Positions 31,630 through 37,417 of a stretch of DNA of 42,265 nucleotides are shown piece after piece. The notes below the pieces were generated by a model, which saw only the letters and a program-made list of their open reading frames with translations, was not told the DNA's origin and ran no database searches. A program made the position numbers and the translations under genes. This stretch comes from Phenylobacterium sp. (GTDB lineage Bacteria; Pseudomonadota; Alphaproteobacteria; Caulobacterales; Caulobacteraceae). The stretch spans positions 1 through 42,265 of the forward strand of contig NZ_JAUSBZ010000067.1 in the NCBI RefSeq assembly GCF_030651755.1. Direction: 5' to 3'. Positions within the stretch are counted from its first letter, which is position 1. Every line of letters begins with the position of its first letter.

Positions 31630-31654
31630 AACGGCGGGGACTGCCCTCGGTTCC
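31630..31654 (-). promoter_or_regulatory. EcfG/SigT-type promoter for the lipid kinase/phosphoesterase operon
   Basis: On the minus strand GGAAC (31654-31650), 16 bases, CGTT (31633-31630), 35 bases before the first start codon. It is divergent from the promoter at 31697-31722. Confidence 0.85.
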
Positions 31655-31696
31655 CGCCGCCCCCTCCCGAAACGGTCAAGCTTGTGTCGCGGGAGG

Positions 31697-31722
31697 GGAA
31701 CCTGACCGAGTGGATGGACGTT
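31697..31722 (+). promoter_or_regulatory. EcfG/SigT-type promoter for the glycine-zipper lipoprotein
   Basis: GGAAC (31697-31701), 17 bases, CGTT (31719-31722), exact consensus, 34 bases before the ATG. Confidence 0.85.
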
Positions 31723-31755
31723 TTGTTGTCGGCACAAGCTCAAGGAGAGCCTGAA

Positions 31756-32100
31756 ATGATGAAATCTCTTATCGCTGTCGCAGGCGCGGGCCTCTTGGCC
31801 GCGGCCTGCACTTCGACCGGAACCGTGGAGCGTAACGCCGCTGGCGGCGCCGCCCTCGGCGCCCTCGCCGGCGCTGTGATCGGCAACAATGTCGGTTCGG
31901 GCAGCGCGGCTACGGGCGCGGCCATCGGCGCCGTCGCCGGCGGCGCGGCCGGGGCCTACAAGGGCTGTCGCGAAGATGGCGGCTGCGGCGCCAATGTTCC
32001 TAATCGGCGTCAGTACTATGACGAGCGCGCCGGTCGGTATTATTTCTATGACTCAGCCAGCCAGCGCTACTACTGGGAAGATGGTCAGCCCCGCTATTGA
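31756..32100 (+). CDS. Glycine-zipper outer-membrane lipoprotein
   Basis: The 114-residue precursor has lipobox LAAAC (Cys 18), a glycine-zipper hydrophobic stretch (about 29-67, GGAALGALAGAVIG and GAAIGAVAGGAAG) and a Tyr-rich C-terminus (YYDERAGRYYFYDSASQRYYW). Similar small zipper lipoproteins of the OsmB/SlyB sort are induced by osmotic or stationary-phase stress. The zipper is like that of the OmpA lipoprotein at 8835-9509, which lacks the Tyr tail. AAGGAG precedes the ATG at 31756; the frame is open to 31684, but that part contains the promoter. It has its own terminator. Confidence 0.88.
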   Translation: MMKSLIAVAGAGLLAAACTSTGTVERNAAGGAALGALAGAVIGNNVGSGSAATGAAIGAVAGGAAGAYKGCREDGGCGANVPNRRQYYDERAGRYYFYDSASQRYYWEDGQPRY

Positions 32101-32131
32101 TCGGGACTGAAGTTTAAAGAAGATCAGGAAT

Positions 32132-32159
32132 GGGCGGTCAGCAAGCTGGCCGCCCTTTT
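32132..32159 (+). terminator. Rho-independent terminator of the glycine-zipper lipoprotein gene
   Basis: GGGCGGTCAGC pairs with GCTGGCCGCCC (one G-T pair, loop AA), followed by TTTTC; it lies 31 bases after the stop. Confidence 0.85.
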
Positions 32160-32205
32160 CGTGTGCGCGGCCGGCATGGTCCGCGTCTAGAGGGGTGATG
32201 GGACG

Positions 32206-32655
32206 ATGCGAGCCAAAACATATGCCGTCGCAGGGGCGCTCTGTGTCACAGGCGTTCTGCTGTTGGGGGGCTGTCAGAGCTGGCGGCAGGGCCTGGCCCT
32301 GGACAATCGCTGCGAGCCGGTCACTGCGGAAATCTATTTTGAGCCGGACTCCGCTGAGCTGGGCCCCGAGGCTCGGGGTCTGATCGCCGAGACGGCTCGG
32401 CGTTCAAGCGAATGCGTGGTTGAGGCGGTCGAGGTCCTGGGGTTGGCGGACGCCAGCGGCGCGGCGGACGCCAATCTGGTTCTGTCCCAGGCGCGCGCCG
32501 CCGCGGTGGCCGAGGCCCTGACCGCTGCGGGCCTTCCCGAAGCCGCCTTCGACACTCGGGCCGCGGGTCAGGCCGGGGCCGTCACCACCGATGGTGTGAA
32601 CCGTCCCATGCGACGCCGGGTGGAGATCGTTCTGCGGATGGCCAACCCTTCCTGA
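32206..32655 (+). CDS. Small OmpA-like lipoprotein
   Basis: The 149-residue precursor has lipobox LLGGC (Cys 23) and one OmpA-like domain (about 40-145): IYFEPDSAELGPEA, a diverged centre with LGLADASGAAD for the usual GHTDxxG, and the end RPMRRRVEIVL. It could bind peptidoglycan, though the altered core motif makes this uncertain. The ATG at 32206 follows GATGGGACG; an upstream EcfG element was not found, unlike its neighbours. It lies between the terminator of the previous gene and the candidate sRNA on the other strand. Confidence 0.85.
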   Translation: MRAKTYAVAGALCVTGVLLLGGCQSWRQGLALDNRCEPVTAEIYFEPDSAELGPEARGLIAETARRSSECVVEAVEVLGLADASGAADANLVLSQARAAAVAEALTAAGLPEAAFDTRAAGQAGAVTTDGVNRPMRRRVEIVLRMANPS

Positions 32656-32666
32656 GCCTGGCGGCG

Positions 32667-32701
32667 ACAGAAAGAGAGTGGCGGACCCGAAGGGTCCGCC
32701 A
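32667..32701 (-). terminator. Hairpin with pyrimidine tail, probable end of the sRNA
   Basis: On the minus strand TGGCGGACCC pairs perfectly with GGGTCCGCCA (loop TTC) and CTCTCTTTCTG follows. The tail is poor in consecutive T, so termination strength is doubtful. It also lies 23 bases after the plus-strand OmpA-like gene and could serve that gene. Confidence 0.5.
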
Positions 32702-32796
32702 AGTGGGTATCATCGAGAAAAGGGGGGGTGCGGAGGCGGCAGACTGGCGGAGTATCGCCAGCCTCAAGTCGGGGGGGGCGTCGCCGCCTCCGCAGG
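32667..32796 (-). ncRNA. Candidate stress-induced small RNA, GsrN-like
   Basis: This gene-free stretch on the minus strand starts about 7 bases after an EcfG-type -10. A perfect 12-bp stem pairs TGCGGAGGCGGC (32794-32783) with GCCGCCTCCGCA (32740-32729). Inside it lie an unpaired C8 run (32778-32771, flanked GACG and GACTTG) and a perfect 6-bp hairpin (CTGGCG/CGCCAG, 32761-32744). After the stem comes a second C run, CCCCCCCTTTT (32728-32718). The RNA would end at a 10-bp hairpin (32701-32679, loop TTC) followed by CTCTCTTTCTG. GsrN, the general stress sRNA of Caulobacter, is known for exposed C-rich loops that pair with G-rich leaders. Length (about 130) and details are estimates; primary sequence identity was not checked. 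Confidence 0.62.
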
Positions 32797-32802
32797 TTGA
32801 AT

Positions 32803-32827
32803 AACTCGCCGCTTCCGAACCCGTTCC
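32803..32827 (-). promoter_or_regulatory. Probable EcfG-type promoter for the candidate sRNA
   Basis: On the minus strand GGAAC (32827-32823), 16 bases, AGTT (32806-32803); the only departure from consensus is A for C in the -10. Confidence 0.55.
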
Positions 32828-32886
32828 ACCCGTCGCTCACTTTTTTGCGCCTGCCTGTCTCCGCCCCATCTGAGCGCAAAGCACGG

Positions 32887-32911
32887 GGAACAGAGGCCGG
32901 GCGCCTGCGTT
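32887..32911 (+). promoter_or_regulatory. EcfG/SigT-type promoter for two small membrane proteins
   Basis: GGAAC (32887-32891), 16 bases, CGTT (32908-32911), exact consensus, 45 bases before the ATG at 32957. It is divergent from the sRNA promoter 60 bases away. An inverted repeat TTTGCGC/GCGCAAA (32844-32880) lies between them. Confidence 0.83.
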
Positions 32912-32956
32912 CTTTCCATAGCGAAGCCTGTGCTTTGTATTGAACGGGGCTGGCGG

Positions 32957-33160
32957 ATGATCCGAGGCTACATCGCAGCCCATGGGGGGCTCGCCTATCT
33001 TGAGACGCCCTCTCGCAGGGCGGCGGTCGCCCATCGGCGGGCCGCAGCACTCACCGCGATTTTGACCATGGCCAGCGCCGTCGGCCTGCTCGTCGCGGTC
33101 ACGCGGGACGATCCCGGCGGTCCCGCGCCGCCGGCCCCCTTCCCCTTCGTACGCCTCTAA
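32957..33160 (+). CDS. Small single-pass membrane protein, unknown function
   Basis: The 67-residue protein has a basic amphipathic N-terminal half (ETPSRRAAVAHRRAAALTA), one membrane helix (about 34-53, LTMASAVGLLVAVT) and a Pro-rich tail. I do not recognise a family. The ATG at 32957 has only a loose GGGG-rich site; the open frame to 32930 begins downstream of the promoter, so a slightly longer product is possible. It is the first gene after an exact EcfG promoter and is followed at 16 bases by another small membrane-protein gene. Confidence 0.62.
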   Translation: MIRGYIAAHGGLAYLETPSRRAAVAHRRAAALTAILTMASAVGLLVAVTRDDPGGPAPPAPFPFVRL

Positions 33161-33176
33161 GCCAAGGAAGCCCCTC

Positions 33177-33452
33177 ATGGCCCAAACGCCTGAAAACGAC
33201 GCCCCGAAGATCCCTGCGACCCCAGCGCGCCAGGGCGCCTTGGGAAGGCCGGTCATGGTCGTGCTGCTGGTTTCTGTGACCCTGGCCTTTGTCGGCCTGA
33301 TGGCCGCCTGGCTTTTCCGGGCCGATGATCTGGCGGAGGGCGACGCCCACGCTGGCCGGCAGGCCACCGACGCCGCGATGTTCGAGCAGGACGCCCCGGC
33401 CCCTCGCATCGCCGAGGACGACGGATCGGATGGCCCCAGCACCGCCCCCTAA
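33177..33452 (+). CDS. Small single-pass membrane protein, unknown function
   Basis: The 91-residue protein has a polar Pro-rich N-terminus, one membrane helix (about 26-47, VMVVLLVSVTLAFVGLMAAWLF) and an acidic C-terminal tail (EGDAHAGRQATDAAMFEQD...), probably periplasmic. No family is recognised. AAGGAAG lies 7 bases before the ATG. It is likely co-transcribed with the preceding gene from the stress promoter and ends at a strong bidirectional terminator. Confidence 0.7.
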   Translation: MAQTPENDAPKIPATPARQGALGRPVMVVLLVSVTLAFVGLMAAWLFRADDLAEGDAHAGRQATDAAMFEQDAPAPRIAEDDGSDGPSTAP

Positions 33453-33475
33453 ACCCGGCGGCCCGGCGTCCAATG

Positions 33476-33515
33476 AAAAGCGGCCCCCGACCGGTTGGTC
33501 GGGGGCCGCTTGTTT
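33476..33515. terminator. Bidirectional Rho-independent terminator
   Basis: A stem of about 14 bp (33479-33492 with 33497-33510, loop GGTT) has AAAA on its left and TGTTT on its right. It can stop plus-strand RNA from 33452 and minus-strand RNA from the second DUF1328 gene. Confidence 0.88.
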
Positions 33516-33549
33516 CGTCCCAAAGCCCCTGAGAAGGGGATTCGGGTGG

Positions 33550-33723
33550 TCAAACGACCGACTGACCTCGGATAGCCCGGACCACAAAGCTGGCCACCAG
33601 CAGCACGAGGAAGATGACGAACAACACCTTGGCGATGGTCGCCGCCAGGCCCGCCAGGCCCATAAAGCCCAGATAGCCGGCGCCCAGGGCCAGAACTGCG
33701 AAAACGATCGCCCAACCTAGCAT
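33550..33723 (-). CDS. DUF1328 small membrane protein (second copy)
   Basis: The 57-residue protein MLGWAIVFAVLALGAGYLGF... ends in VVRAIRGQSVV and has two membrane helices around GLAGLAATIAK. It is the same family as the gene at 29294-29464 and clearly paralogous, with similar spacing of the MLxWA start, the Gly turn and the RG tail. AAGGA lies 8 bases before the ATG. An exact EcfG promoter lies 61 bases upstream. Function unknown; co-regulation of two copies suggests dosage or partner specificity. Confidence 0.9.
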   Translation of the reverse strand: MLGWAIVFAVLALGAGYLGFMGLAGLAATIAKVLFVIFLVLLVASFVVRAIRGQSVV

Positions 33724-33783
33724 GGCGTTGATCCTTCGAGCTTAGGGGGCGCCGGCCAGATGGGCCAACGCCTATCCCCCTGA

Positions 33784-33808
33784 AACGCTCTCTGGCCCGC
33801 GCTGTTCC
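33784..33808 (-). promoter_or_regulatory. EcfG/SigT-type promoter for the second DUF1328 gene
   Basis: On the minus strand GGAAC (33808-33804), 16 bases, CGTT (33787-33784). It sits directly at the foot of the hairpin that follows phyR. Confidence 0.85.
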
Positions 33809-33813
33809 AATGG

Positions 33814-33844
33814 CCCGGGCCGCTCCGATGGGAGCTGGCCCGGG
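33814..33844 (-). terminator. Hairpin after phyR, possible terminator
   Basis: CCCGGGCC-GCTCC (33814-33826) pairs with GGAGC-T-GGCCCGGG (33831-33844) with one bulge. It lies 10 bases after the phyR stop; the lack of a T-run makes intrinsic termination uncertain. Confidence 0.45.
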
Positions 33845-33853
33845 GGTCTCGGA

Positions 33854-34654
33854 TCAGGCCGCGACTTTGGCCTTGCGACGGGGATGGAAAAAGAGCGCTT
33901 GTCCAATGGCCGCCTTCACCGTTTCCGGCTGGAACGGCTTGGTGATCAGGAAGGTCGGCTCTGGACGTTCGCCGGTCAGCAGGCGCTCGGGGAAGGCGGT
34001 GATGAAGATCACCGGAACGTCGAGCTCGGCCAGGATGTCCCTGACCGCATCAATGCCTGACGATCCATCGGCCAGCTGAATGTCGGCCAGGACGAGACCC
34101 GGGCGATTGCGGCTCACGGCGTCCACGGCCTCGGTCCGGGTGGCGGCGATATCCACCACGGTGTGACCAAGCTCCTTCACCAGGGCTTCGATATCCGCCG
34201 CGATCACGGGCTCATCCTCAATGATGAGGACATCGGTGGCGAGTTCGGCGTCTATTTCGGACTGGGCCTCAGCGATCAACGCCCCAACCTCTTCGAAGGT
34301 CGCGCCGAGGATCTCTGCGGTTTCACTGTGGGTGAAGCCCTCCAGAGCCGTCAGCAGAAAGGCTTGGCGCGACCGCGGCGCGATGCGCATGAGGCGCGAA
34401 TTGGCGTCGTCATCGGCCAGGTCGCTCACCGCGCGCGACTCCAGCTGAGCCCCCGTGGAGCACCAGATGGCGTGGAACACATGGTAGAGGGCGACCCTGG
34501 GCGTCAGCCCCGCCTCCAAGACGCGTTCGCCGGCCGCAAGGGCCTCAAGGGCGACGCGGACATAATGATCACCAGTAGTTTGATCGCCGGTGAGCGCACG
34601 CGCATAACGCCGGACATAAGGCAGATGCGGCGCCAGTCGGGCTAGAAGACTCAA
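33854..34654 (-). CDS. phyR: General stress response anti-anti-sigma factor PhyR
   Basis: The 266-residue response regulator has an N-terminal sigma-like domain (about 1-125) that mimics EcfG and a C-terminal receiver (about 140-260). When D191 (LVLADIQLADG) is phosphorylated, the sigma-like part binds NepR and frees EcfG. The receiver has E146/D147, the FATGUY-type FITAFPERLLTG and K239 (LITKPF). I start at the TTG at 34654 (MSLLARLAPHLPYVRRYARAL), which has GGAGG 5 bases upstream and gives the usual length; the frame is open to 34684. It is divergent from nepR-ecfG, with overlapping EcfG promoters between them. Confidence 0.96.
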   Translation of the reverse strand: MSLLARLAPHLPYVRRYARALTGDQTTGDHYVRVALEALAAGERVLEAGLTPRVALYHVFHAIWCSTGAQLESRAVSDLADDDANSRLMRIAPRSRQAFLLTALEGFTHSETAEILGATFEEVGALIAEAQSEIDAELATDVLIIEDEPVIAADIEALVKELGHTVVDIAATRTEAVDAVSRNRPGLVLADIQLADGSSGIDAVRDILAELDVPVIFITAFPERLLTGERPEPTFLITKPFQPETVKAAIGQALFFHPRRKAKVAA

Positions 34655-34729
34655 TGACCCCTCCCGTAGAGCAAGGATGAACACGCGAGCGCGAATGGTG
34701 CGACCGCGTTTGATCCATCAACGGCATAA

Positions 34730-34754
34730 AACGTCGCCGGAGGGAACCGGTTCC
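34730..34754 (-). promoter_or_regulatory. EcfG/SigT-type promoter of phyR
   Basis: On the minus strand GGAAC (34754-34750), 16 bases, CGTT (34733-34730). Its -35 is one half of the palindrome GGAACCGGTTCC (34743-34754). Confidence 0.88.
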
Positions 34755-34768
34755 CCCCGTCTTGCGTT
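34743..34768 (+). promoter_or_regulatory. EcfG/SigT-type promoter of nepR-ecfG
   Basis: GGAAC (34743-34747), 17 bases, CGTT (34765-34768). Its -35 is the other half of the same 12-bp palindrome, so the two promoters overlap back to back. Confidence 0.88.
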
Positions 34769-34831
34769 TTCGACATTCTCACATCGGGCGGCTTTGTTTA
34801 GCCCGAAGGAACTCGACGGGGGGCCGAGCGT

Positions 34832-35086
34832 TTGAGCGATCAGAACGACAGCATGAAGGGGCGATCACCGCCAAAGCGGGACGCCGGGGAAATGATTCAA
34901 CATCAAGCTGAGCCGCAGGCGACCGGACCAGACGTCAGCGCTGCGGCGCTGGACGAGGCGCGGTTGCGCCAGCAAGCCATCGGCGTTCGCCTACGACAGA
35001 TGTTCGATGAGGTGGTCAACGAACCTGTGCCTGATGAGTTTCTCGACATCCTTCGCCGTGCGGACAAGTCGGCGGAGAAGGGCTGA
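34832..35086 (+). CDS. nepR: Anti-sigma factor NepR
   Basis: The 84-residue protein binds and silences EcfG until phosphorylated PhyR takes it away. The diagnostic core is at about 50-76: IGVRLRQMFDEVVNEPVPDEF and LDILRRAD. The N-terminal third is polar and probably disordered, as in known NepR proteins. The start is a TTG at 34832; an ATG at 34853 would give 77 residues and cannot be excluded. A G6 run lies just upstream. The stop shares one base with the ecfG start, coupling anti-sigma and sigma synthesis. Transcribed from its own EcfG promoter, giving positive autoregulation. Confidence 0.94.
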   Translation: MSDQNDSMKGRSPPKRDAGEMIQHQAEPQATGPDVSAAALDEARLRQQAIGVRLRQMFDEVVNEPVPDEFLDILRRADKSAEKG

Positions 35087-35679
35087 TGGTTGACCGCAGT
35101 CCCCGAGACCCGGCGTTGGACAATGCGTTCAAGGCCGAGATCGTCACCTTGATCCCGCATCTGCGCGCCTTCGCCCGCACCCTGTGTGGCGACGCCACAG
35201 CCGCCGACGACCTCGCCCAGGACGCCATGATGAAGGCTTGGGACGCGCGCGCCAGCTTCCAGATGGGCACCAATATGAAGGCCTGGACCTTCATGATCCT
35301 GCGCAATCAGTTCTATTCGGAGAAGCGTCGCTCCTGGCGTCAGAGCCAGCTTGACCAGGAGGCCGCCGAACGGACCCTGGTGGCGGTGGATGATCCCGAA
35401 GCCCCCGTGGCCCTGGACGAACTGCGGTTGAGCCTGGGGATGCTGCCGCCCGAACAGCGGGAAGCTCTGATTCTCGTCGGCGCGGGCGGGTTCGCCTATG
35501 AAGAGGCCGCCGAGATCTGCGGTGTGGCCGTGGGCACGGTGAAGAGCCGTGTCAGCCGGGCCCGGCGAGCCCTGCAATCCATCCTCGAGGCCGGCGCCTA
35601 TGACCGCGATGGCGGCGCGGCCGGTGATGCGATGCGGTCTATCCTGGCCGACGCCGAGCGTCTCAGCACCGCTCGCTGA
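35086..35679 (+). CDS. sigT: ECF sigma factor EcfG/SigT of the general stress response
   Basis: The 197-residue sigma factor directs RNA polymerase to GGAAC-N16/17-CGTT promoters. Region 2 spans about 15-85 (LIPHLRAFARTLCGDATAADDLAQD, MKAWTFMILRNQFYSEKRR), and region 4 spans about 115-170 (LPPEQREALILVGAGGFAYEEAAEI, VGTVKSRVSRARRAL). No extra C-terminal domain is present, as expected for EcfG. The start overlaps the nepR stop by one base. It lies 20 bases before phyK. The many matching promoters around it make the assignment unusually firm. Confidence 0.96.
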   Translation: MVDRSPRDPALDNAFKAEIVTLIPHLRAFARTLCGDATAADDLAQDAMMKAWDARASFQMGTNMKAWTFMILRNQFYSEKRRSWRQSQLDQEAAERTLVAVDDPEAPVALDELRLSLGMLPPEQREALILVGAGGFAYEEAAEICGVAVGTVKSRVSRARRALQSILEAGAYDRDGGAAGDAMRSILADAERLSTAR

Positions 35680-35699
35680 CGGCCCGGGGGGGCTGGGAC

Positions 35700-37412
35700 A
35701 TGAATGAAGATCCCTGGGCCGCCCTCGGCACCATTCGCGTACGGCTGATCGCCGCCATGGCGGCGGCTCTGCTTCCCGTCCTGGTTCTAGGCGCCATCCA
35801 GACGAGCCTGGCCTTCCATCATGAGGCCGAACGGGTTCGCGAGACCCTGGGCTCGGCCGCCCAACGCAGCGCGGCCGACGCACGGGCCCGCATGGAGTCT
35901 GCCGACATTCTGCTTGAGACGCTGGCGCCCGGCTCGGTGGGGTTCGCCTGCGCCCAGCGGCTGGGCGAGGTGACCGAACGGATACCCGGTTACGCCAACC
36001 TCATTCGGTTTGATCGGTCAGGTCGGGTCGCCTGCGCAGCCGGCAACGTGCCCTCTGACCCGGCTCGCGGGGACCGGCCCTGGTTCAGTCAGGTTCGCAA
36101 CACCGGTGACATGGTGATCACCCGCGACCCTGGAGTCAGCTATTCCGAAGCTCCGGCCCTGATGGCCGTGGTGCCCGCCTATACCGCCGCCGGGGAGTTC
36201 GATGGAGCCCTGGCCGCCATCATCTCTCTCTCAAGCCTGCAACCAAACACCGCGGCGGCGGCGCTCCCGGAAGGCGCCGAGGTCGCGCTTCTGGACGGCG
36301 CAGGCAACTATCTCAGCCTGACCGATCCTGCAGCCTTCGGGCCGCCTCCAAGCGGCTGGCAGGCGCGGACCCAGGCGGTCGGATCTCATGTCTGGTACGC
36401 CAATGCGGGCGGGGAGCGCCGGGTGCACATCGCCGCCCCCCTGGTCGGCGAAAGCCTGTTCGTCATTCTCTCGGCAGAATCGCCCAGTCTGTTTTCGTGG
36501 GCGCGTCTTAACCCGCTGACCGGGCTCGTCCTGCCCCTGTTGACCTTCGCCCTGGTCCTGGGATCGGTGTTCGTCGCCGTGGACAGGGTCGTGGTGCGCT
36601 GGCTGATCTATCTGCAACGGATCGCGGGCCTGTACGCCCGAGGACGGCTCACCGTTCGCCCGGCCCAGGTGGAGGACATGCCGTCAGAAATCCGCGATCT
36701 GGCGGAGGCGATGGAGAATATGGCCGACGCCATTGTCGGCCGAGACGCCTCCCTGAAGGACTCCCTGGCCCACAAGGACGCCCTGATGCGGGAGATCCAT
36801 CATCGGGTGAAGAACAATCTCCAGGTGATTTCCAGCCTGCTCAGCATGCAGCAGCGGGCCTTGAGCGATCCTGGCGCGCGGGCGGCCATGTCCGACACGC
36901 GCCAACGGATTTCCGCCCTCGCCCTCGTCTATCGCGCCCTTTATCAGGGACCCGACCTGAAGCGGGTCGATCTGCGCCCCTTCCTTGAGGAGCTAACCGC
37001 CCAGCTGGTGGCGGGGGAATCGATGCATGGACCGGCGGTCCGCACCGAGCTTCATGCCGACACCCTAATGATCGATCCTGATCGCCTGGCGCCCTTGGCC
37101 CTGTTCGCTGTCGAGGCCATCACCAACGCCCAGAAGCACGCCTTCTCGGGACGCGGGGGGACGCTTGGGGTCGACTTCCGCGTGAAGGGAGAGGAGGCGG
37201 TTCTGGAGATCGCCGATGACGGAGTGGCCAGCGATCAGGCCCTGGCCGGGACCGGGGTCGGTAGAACCTTGATGACGGCCTTTGCGCGCCAGCTCCGGGG
37301 CCGGTCTGAACTGGTGCGAAACCCAGCCGGCGGCGTGACGGTGCGCCTGGTCTTCCCCGTCCCTGAGCCCGGAAATCAAAGCGTGCCGGCTGGGAACCAG
37401 CAGGTCGCCTGA
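35700..37412 (+). CDS. phyK: Membrane sensor histidine kinase PhyK
   Basis: The 570-residue inner-membrane kinase acts on PhyR. A first membrane helix (about 14-36), a periplasmic sensor region of Cache-like type (about 37-265) and a second helix (about 273-298) are followed by a HAMP-like linker and a HisKA_2/HWE-type domain with H368 in REIHHRVKNNLQVISSLL. The ATPase domain (about 465-560) contains VEAITNAQKHAF and IADDGV. Its position after ecfG matches C. crescentus phyK. A run of seven G (35686-35692) lies 7 bases upstream of the ATG and doubles as the ribosome-binding area. The last codons contain the promoter of the next small gene. Confidence 0.93.
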   Translation: MNEDPWAALGTIRVRLIAAMAAALLPVLVLGAIQTSLAFHHEAERVRETLGSAAQRSAADARARMESADILLETLAPGSVGFACAQRLGEVTERIPGYANLIRFDRSGRVACAAGNVPSDPARGDRPWFSQVRNTGDMVITRDPGVSYSEAPALMAVVPAYTAAGEFDGALAAIISLSSLQPNTAAAALPEGAEVALLDGAGNYLSLTDPAAFGPPPSGWQARTQAVGSHVWYANAGGERRVHIAAPLVGESLFVILSAESPSLFSWARLNPLTGLVLPLLTFALVLGSVFVAVDRVVVRWLIYLQRIAGLYARGRLTVRPAQVEDMPSEIRDLAEAMENMADAIVGRDASLKDSLAHKDALMREIHHRVKNNLQVISSLLSMQQRALSDPGARAAMSDTRQRISALALVYRALYQGPDLKRVDLRPFLEELTAQLVAGESMHGPAVRTELHADTLMIDPDRLAPLALFAVEAITNAQKHAFSGRGGTLGVDFRVKGEEAVLEIADDGVASDQALAGTGVGRTLMTAFARQLRGRSELVRNPAGGVTVRLVFPVPEPGNQSVPAGNQQVA

Positions 37413-37417
37413 CCGTT
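37393..37417 (+). promoter_or_regulatory. EcfG/SigT-type promoter inside the end of phyK
   Basis: GGAAC (37393-37397), 16 bases, CGTT (37414-37417). It straddles the phyK stop codon (37410-37412) and lies 40 bases before the entericidin-like gene. Confidence 0.84.

Follow-up and report, generated by a model that had tools for sequence, protein, structure and literature searches.

A highly probable GsrN ortholog beside the general stress response genes of a Phenylobacterium genome

The locus and the fold of its minus-strand RNA

The window (the whole stretch of DNA analysed, 42,265 nucleotides of a Phenylobacterium contig) carries an OmpA-family lipoprotein gene (32206–32655, plus strand) and genes of the general stress response (GSR), and an sRNA locus lies on the minus strand in the gap between them. 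All of the GSR genes are on the promoter side of the sRNA. They encode the response regulator PhyR (33854–34684, minus strand; PF22029, PF22233 and PF00072), the NepR anti-sigma factor (34832–35086, plus strand; PF18557), a sigma factor with Sigma70_r2 and Sigma70_r4_2 domains (35086–35679, plus strand), for which the name EcfG is suggested by its position behind NepR, and a histidine kinase with a HisKA_2/HWE domain match (35700–37412, plus strand) that is PhyK-like by position. The EcfG-type sigma factor is the presumed activator of the sRNA.

An earlier sequence-only reading of this segment had described a promoter, a closed stem with an exposed cytosine run, further hairpins and a likeness to the GsrN sRNA of Caulobacter. 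The EcfG (sigma-T) type promoter, GGAAC-N16-AGTT, was recovered by motif scan at 32827–32803 on the minus strand. Behind it lies the gsrN homolog (32679–32793, minus strand), of which 32679–32791 is an Rfam match, while the 5' end at 32793 is placed by reference to Caulobacter vibrioides; the RNA proper would thus run from about 32793 to 32679 plus a tail, or about 115 nt. The 12-bp closing stem is perfect, as claimed, with its 5' arm TGCGGAGGCGGC at 32783–32794 pairing throughout with the 3' arm GCCGCCTCCGCA at 32729–32740, both on the minus strand and both evident from sequence and alignment. The Rfam model takes in nine of the 12 base pairs, and the RNA would take in 11 provided that it starts at 32793. 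Within the stem, the fold leaves a C8 run (32771–32778) unpaired in a 5' loop, GACG-C8-GACTTGA, which is presumed to be an mRNA-pairing seed. The claim of a perfect inner hairpin stood for the hairpin itself (32741–32764, from fold and alignment), and its perfection did not, since one of its 9 base pairs is G-U. The second C run, C7, is present at 32722–32728, where it begins the 3' single-stranded segment, and the terminal hairpin is a 10-bp terminator stem at 32679–32701 followed by the pyrimidine-rich tail CTCTCTTTCTG. The fold of the Rfam-matched RNA has an energy of -54.8 kcal/mol, compared with a mean of -36.2 kcal/mol for shuffled sequences (z -6.3), and none of 200 shuffles was as stable.

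Promoter-type sites were also counted across the window. The pattern GGAAC-N16/17-NGTT occurs 14 times (2621–37417) versus 1.07 expected, a number reached by none of 100 shuffles, and nine of the 14 sites fall between 31630 and 37417. These include sites ahead of phyR (34730, minus strand), nepR (34743 and 34808, plus strand) and gsrN, and there is a further site at 32887 (plus strand) on the same strand as a small conserved ORF (33177–33452). From its sequence the interval 31630–37417 resembles a GSR regulon island, and some of the sites, which lie in genes, may be there by chance.

Identity with GsrN and conservation in the Caulobacteraceae

When the whole window was compared with Rfam at gathering scores, two matches were obtained, one to a tRNA and one to RF01529 (CC3552, Caulobacter sRNA). 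The latter covers 32679–32791 on the minus strand and the full length of the model (positions 1–106), with an E-value of 7.2e-11, and it was the only match when the whole genome was searched with RF01529. The sequence-only reading had proposed a covariance model search with GsrN as a check; with RF01529 taken as GsrN, the locus scores 77.8 bits, where the gathering threshold is 50.

Among the RF01529 homologs is L087, which we take to be C. vibrioides DSM 9893, and to which L086 (genome G130) is near-identical. L087 has C6 in its loop, and with its start set two bases before the model and its end at that of the model it is exactly 106 nt long and carries C53, T54 and T64; of five start offsets tried, this was the single one that fitted the published GsrN. 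In Tien, Fiebig and Crosson 2018 (PMC5869019), GsrN is ccna_R0081 of Caulobacter crescentus; its nucleotide numbering runs to 106, its 5' loop contains six cytosines, and cleavage around C53 gives a stable 5' isoform of 51–54 nt, the cloned ends being T54 and T64. A target site predicted there, UCGGGGGGCG, is the reverse complement of CGCCCCCCGA in the L087 loop. Although the names CC3552 and Rfam are absent from the text of that paper (PMC5869019), the length, C6 loop, C53, T54 and T64 of L087 fit the publication, and we therefore infer, with little latitude, that RF01529 and GsrN are in all likelihood the same RNA.

Conservation was assessed in an alignment of 81 sequences, comprising the window and 80 relatives drawn from the best matches listed among 208 RF01529-positive genomes (40 from the window's own genus, g1; 15 from g22, the genus taken to hold C. 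vibrioides; 15 from g3; and 10 from other genera). The loop ACG-C(5–10)-GAC was found in all 81 rows and its longer form GACG-C(5–10)-GACTTGA in 76, with the columns flanking the loop 96–100% conserved. Within the loop, C8 occurs in 34/41 g1 rows and C7, C9 or C10 in the rest, while the run is C6–C9 in g22 and C5–C8 in g3. Behind the stem, three of the 41 g1 rows (the window, L065 and L067) have C7 and one (L048) has C6; elsewhere the run is C3–C5 (the other 37/41 g1 rows), C3–C6 (g22) or C2 (14/15 g3 rows). Given these lengths, C8 is a feature of the family and C7 a local expansion, so that conservation of the two C runs, which the sequence-only reading had put forward as a check, held for the first and failed for the second. 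The C7 run at 32722–32728 is a clade-limited variation in homopolymer length that could reflect slippage without function.

The same reading had called for alignment of this gap in related genomes and for covariation of the stem arms. In the 81 sequences the window's structure pairs in 95.2% of cells, compared with 37.1–50.6% when partners were slid by 1–3 positions, although the structure tested derives from one of the aligned sequences, that of the window, which favours it over the slid versions. Changes on both sides were seen in 22 of 31 pairs versus 2–9 in the slid controls (kinship uncorrected), which bears out the expected covariation.

The promoter and the neighbouring genes are widely kept as well. 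With L101 left out because its upstream sequence was cut, the loose pattern GGAAC-N15..18-NGTT was found in 78 of the 80 remaining rows, the window among them; in the other two, L122 and L123, GGAAC is present without NGTT at the right distance. The -10 element is AGTT in 8/41 g1 rows (the window, L065, L067, L048 and four other rows) and, unlike that of the window, CGTT in 15/15 g22 rows. PhyR, NepR and EcfG were found within the fetched flanks (up to 5 kb a side) of 70 of the 80 relatives, made up of 39/40 in g1, 12/15 in g22, 14/15 in g3 and 5/10 in other genera. The ten misses comprise L100, L101 and L104, where the promoter side extends for less than 700 bases, the C. vibrioides-type L086 and L087, and L049, L091, L099, L103 and L122, in whose full flanks the three proteins were not found.

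These data bear on three other ways of reading the segment. The RNA might be an EcfG-regulated, C-rich sRNA that resembles GsrN by convergence, as proposed in Rhizobiaceae. Outside the Caulobacteraceae, C-rich loops have been predicted close to the GSR locus and downstream of EcfG promoters, and BLASTn with GsrN gave nothing there (PMC5869019). However, the full-length covariance-model match, together with a near-invariant loop and a stem that can be aligned across 81 Caulobacteraceae sequences, makes convergence very improbable. It is just as hard to uphold that the structure belongs to the flanking gene for an OmpA-like lipoprotein, as its bidirectional terminator and leader, with no separate RNA: the hairpin lies beyond that convergent gene, which ends at 32655, and could serve both, but the sRNA has its own promoter and a conserved stem-loop upstream of the terminator, and L086 and L087 keep the sRNA in fetched flanks that gave no match to an OmpA-like or GSR protein.

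That the segment is part of a minus-strand protein-coding gene is scarcely credible. Two ORFs are open, one across the sRNA (32568–33050) and one beside it (32837–33442), and tblastn matches to the former were obtained in 7/40 genus relatives, but these coincide with the sRNA and its conserved nucleotides. Because neither ORF has a Pfam match, and because the lengths of the homologs fall into all three classes modulo 3 (22, 25 and 34 of 81), the region is non-coding, in line with the earlier claim that no gene covers it. Given instead the Rfam match, the GsrN loop, the promoter sequence, the terminator, the genomic neighbours and the alignment with C. vibrioides, the window RNA is, with high confidence, an ortholog of GsrN, the sRNA of the alphaproteobacterial general stress response, so that the proposed likeness to GsrN is upheld and goes beyond mere resemblance.

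Co-occurrence with PhyR and with katG

RF01529 was matched in 208 of 299 genomes of the family with an E-value no higher than 0.001, and 201 of these exceeded the family cut-off, in a search with stricter filters and 12 candidates scored per genome, so that some negatives may be misses. When the 18 RF01529-negative genomes of the window's genus were searched again (123 candidates), 9 weak matches (E up to 1) and none over the cut-off were obtained. A loose loop pattern was also tried as a counter of the RNA; it matched 228/299 genomes, many of the matches listed being other sequence, and the covariance model was used instead.

The PhyR sigma-like domain (PF22233) was matched in 277/299 genomes at E 0.001 and in 265 over the cut-off, numbers that include other sigma factors. 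PhyR was therefore counted where the best PF22233 match fell below 1e-12, a limit set post hoc from a gap between 1.9e-10 and 2.3e-15, with two genomes outside the listed matches counted as negative. On this basis GsrN and PhyR were both present in 206 of the 299 genomes and both absent in 57, while 34 had PhyR only and two (G004 and G050) GsrN only; the corresponding numbers in the window's genus were 55, 14, 4 and 0. Fisher's test gave 1e-34 for all genomes and 8e-12 for the genus, values that are too favourable because kinship is left out of account. The window's PhyR found a near-full-length match in 4 of the 18 genus negatives, one of them a genome that is 81% complete. RF01529 was not matched in 34 of the 240 genomes with PhyR, so that some GSR-bearing relatives either lack the RNA or have copies that escaped the search.

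Individual genomes added further observations. L154 (G178), a genus relative without an RF01529 match, has a PhyR 82% identical to that of the window, and on its reverse strand, from about 2317 and just behind PhyR, carries an EcfG-type promoter, a terminator and a fragment similar to the gsrN 3' arm, but no C loop; from its sequence this locus is perhaps an eroded or replaced gsrN. Four g3 genomes (G151, G155, G159 and G204) have two RF01529 matches each. In genus g14, 0/25 genomes had a PF22233 match of PhyR strength or an RF01529 match (two of the 25 by elimination), a pattern suggesting that this genus lacks the GSR.

In the sections of the paper drawn on here, katG is the GsrN target tested in most depth, and its pairing is described as involving seven loop nucleotides including four cytosines (PMC5869019). 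The catalase-peroxidase model TIGR00198 was present in 194/299 genomes at E 0.001, and in this genome katG lies in fragments on two contigs. No association between GsrN and katG was found in the genus (both 36, GsrN only 19, katG only 13, neither 5; p 0.77), where four of the katG negatives were assigned by elimination, being absent among the matches listed. Since 19 of the 55 GsrN-positive genus genomes show no KatG match (some are drafts, so a few may be assembly gaps), these data suggest that katG is not what keeps GsrN.

Among 21 katG leaders (80 nt before the start), GTCGGGG occurs in five: L149 and L150, which are C. vibrioides-type leaders and fit the described pairing, L141, L142, and L152, where it lies at -78, far from the start. 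It was not found within 80 nt upstream of katG in this genome or in its nearest relatives L133, L134 and L135. The predicted duplex between loop and katG leader was equalled by 19% of shuffles, but the comparison lacked discriminating power, as the C. vibrioides-type controls L149 and L150, which carry the site, did no better than shuffles (38 and 40%); across the 21 leaders, L142 alone reached 0.01 of shuffles. In this comparison the shuffles preserved dinucleotides approximately, G026 and G140 were given the window's loop, and the start in L137 was set too far upstream, a later one being used in the count of GTCGGGG.

Proposed role and relation to known systems

The traits ascribed to GsrN include protection from peroxide and hyperosmotic stress, and in the GSR stress leads to phosphorylated PhyR, through which EcfG is freed from NepR. 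In this organism EcfG would then transcribe gsrN from its own promoter. The RNA would fold so that the stem presents the unpaired loop GACG-C8-GACUUGA and the 3' end forms an intrinsic terminator, and the loop, by analogy with Caulobacter, may pair with G-rich mRNA leaders and alter their translation or stability. For C. crescentus an effect of Hfq on GsrN has been reported (PMC5869019). For the present organism we infer transcription, processing, targets and phenotype.

As GsrN occurs almost only with PhyR, has no tie to katG in the genus and has here gained a second long C run, one might tentatively propose that it persists as a GSR output and not as a regulator of katG, that its core target is one other than katG, and that C7 provides its clade with an extra seed for G-rich leaders; we regard this as possible but on balance doubtful. 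The absence of a katG tie makes the conserved target of GsrN a testable question.

Homologs of GsrN have been described in Caulobacter, Brevundimonas and Phenylobacterium, where they usually neighbour ecfG, nepR and phyR (PMC5869019). The detection is correct, yet what was detected is the ortholog of an sRNA already known, from a family in which orthologs had been reported earlier. This genome is confirmed to carry the published stress sRNA with its structure intact. Three points extend the sections of the paper considered here (PMC5869019): the C7 run is specific to one clade, the RNA and PhyR tend to be absent together, and no tie to katG was seen.

The GsrN-like sRNAs of Rhizobiaceae share with the window RNA an EcfG promoter, a place near the GSR locus and an exposed cytosine-rich 5' loop, which the text of that paper calls cytosine-rich and a figure legend G-rich; they were predicted there by position, promoter and expression rather than through homology to the GsrN sequence, and are likened by description (PMC5869019). 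Compared with the RF01529 model, the window RNA is seven bases longer, mostly in the enlarged loop of the inner hairpin and in the C7 run. With GsrN of C. crescentus it has in common an EcfG/sigma-T-type promoter, a C-rich 5' loop and a terminator formed by the terminal hairpin; to these the alignment with the C. vibrioides homolog adds the stem, the inner hairpin and the single-stranded segment on the 3' side. It differs in having C8 in the loop where C. crescentus has C6, and, relative to C. vibrioides, in having C7 instead of C4 in the 3' segment and AGTT instead of CGTT at -10. Finally, whereas gsrN of C. crescentus is an exception in lying apart from the GSR locus (PMC5869019), gsrN in the window stands beside that locus, as it does in most relatives.
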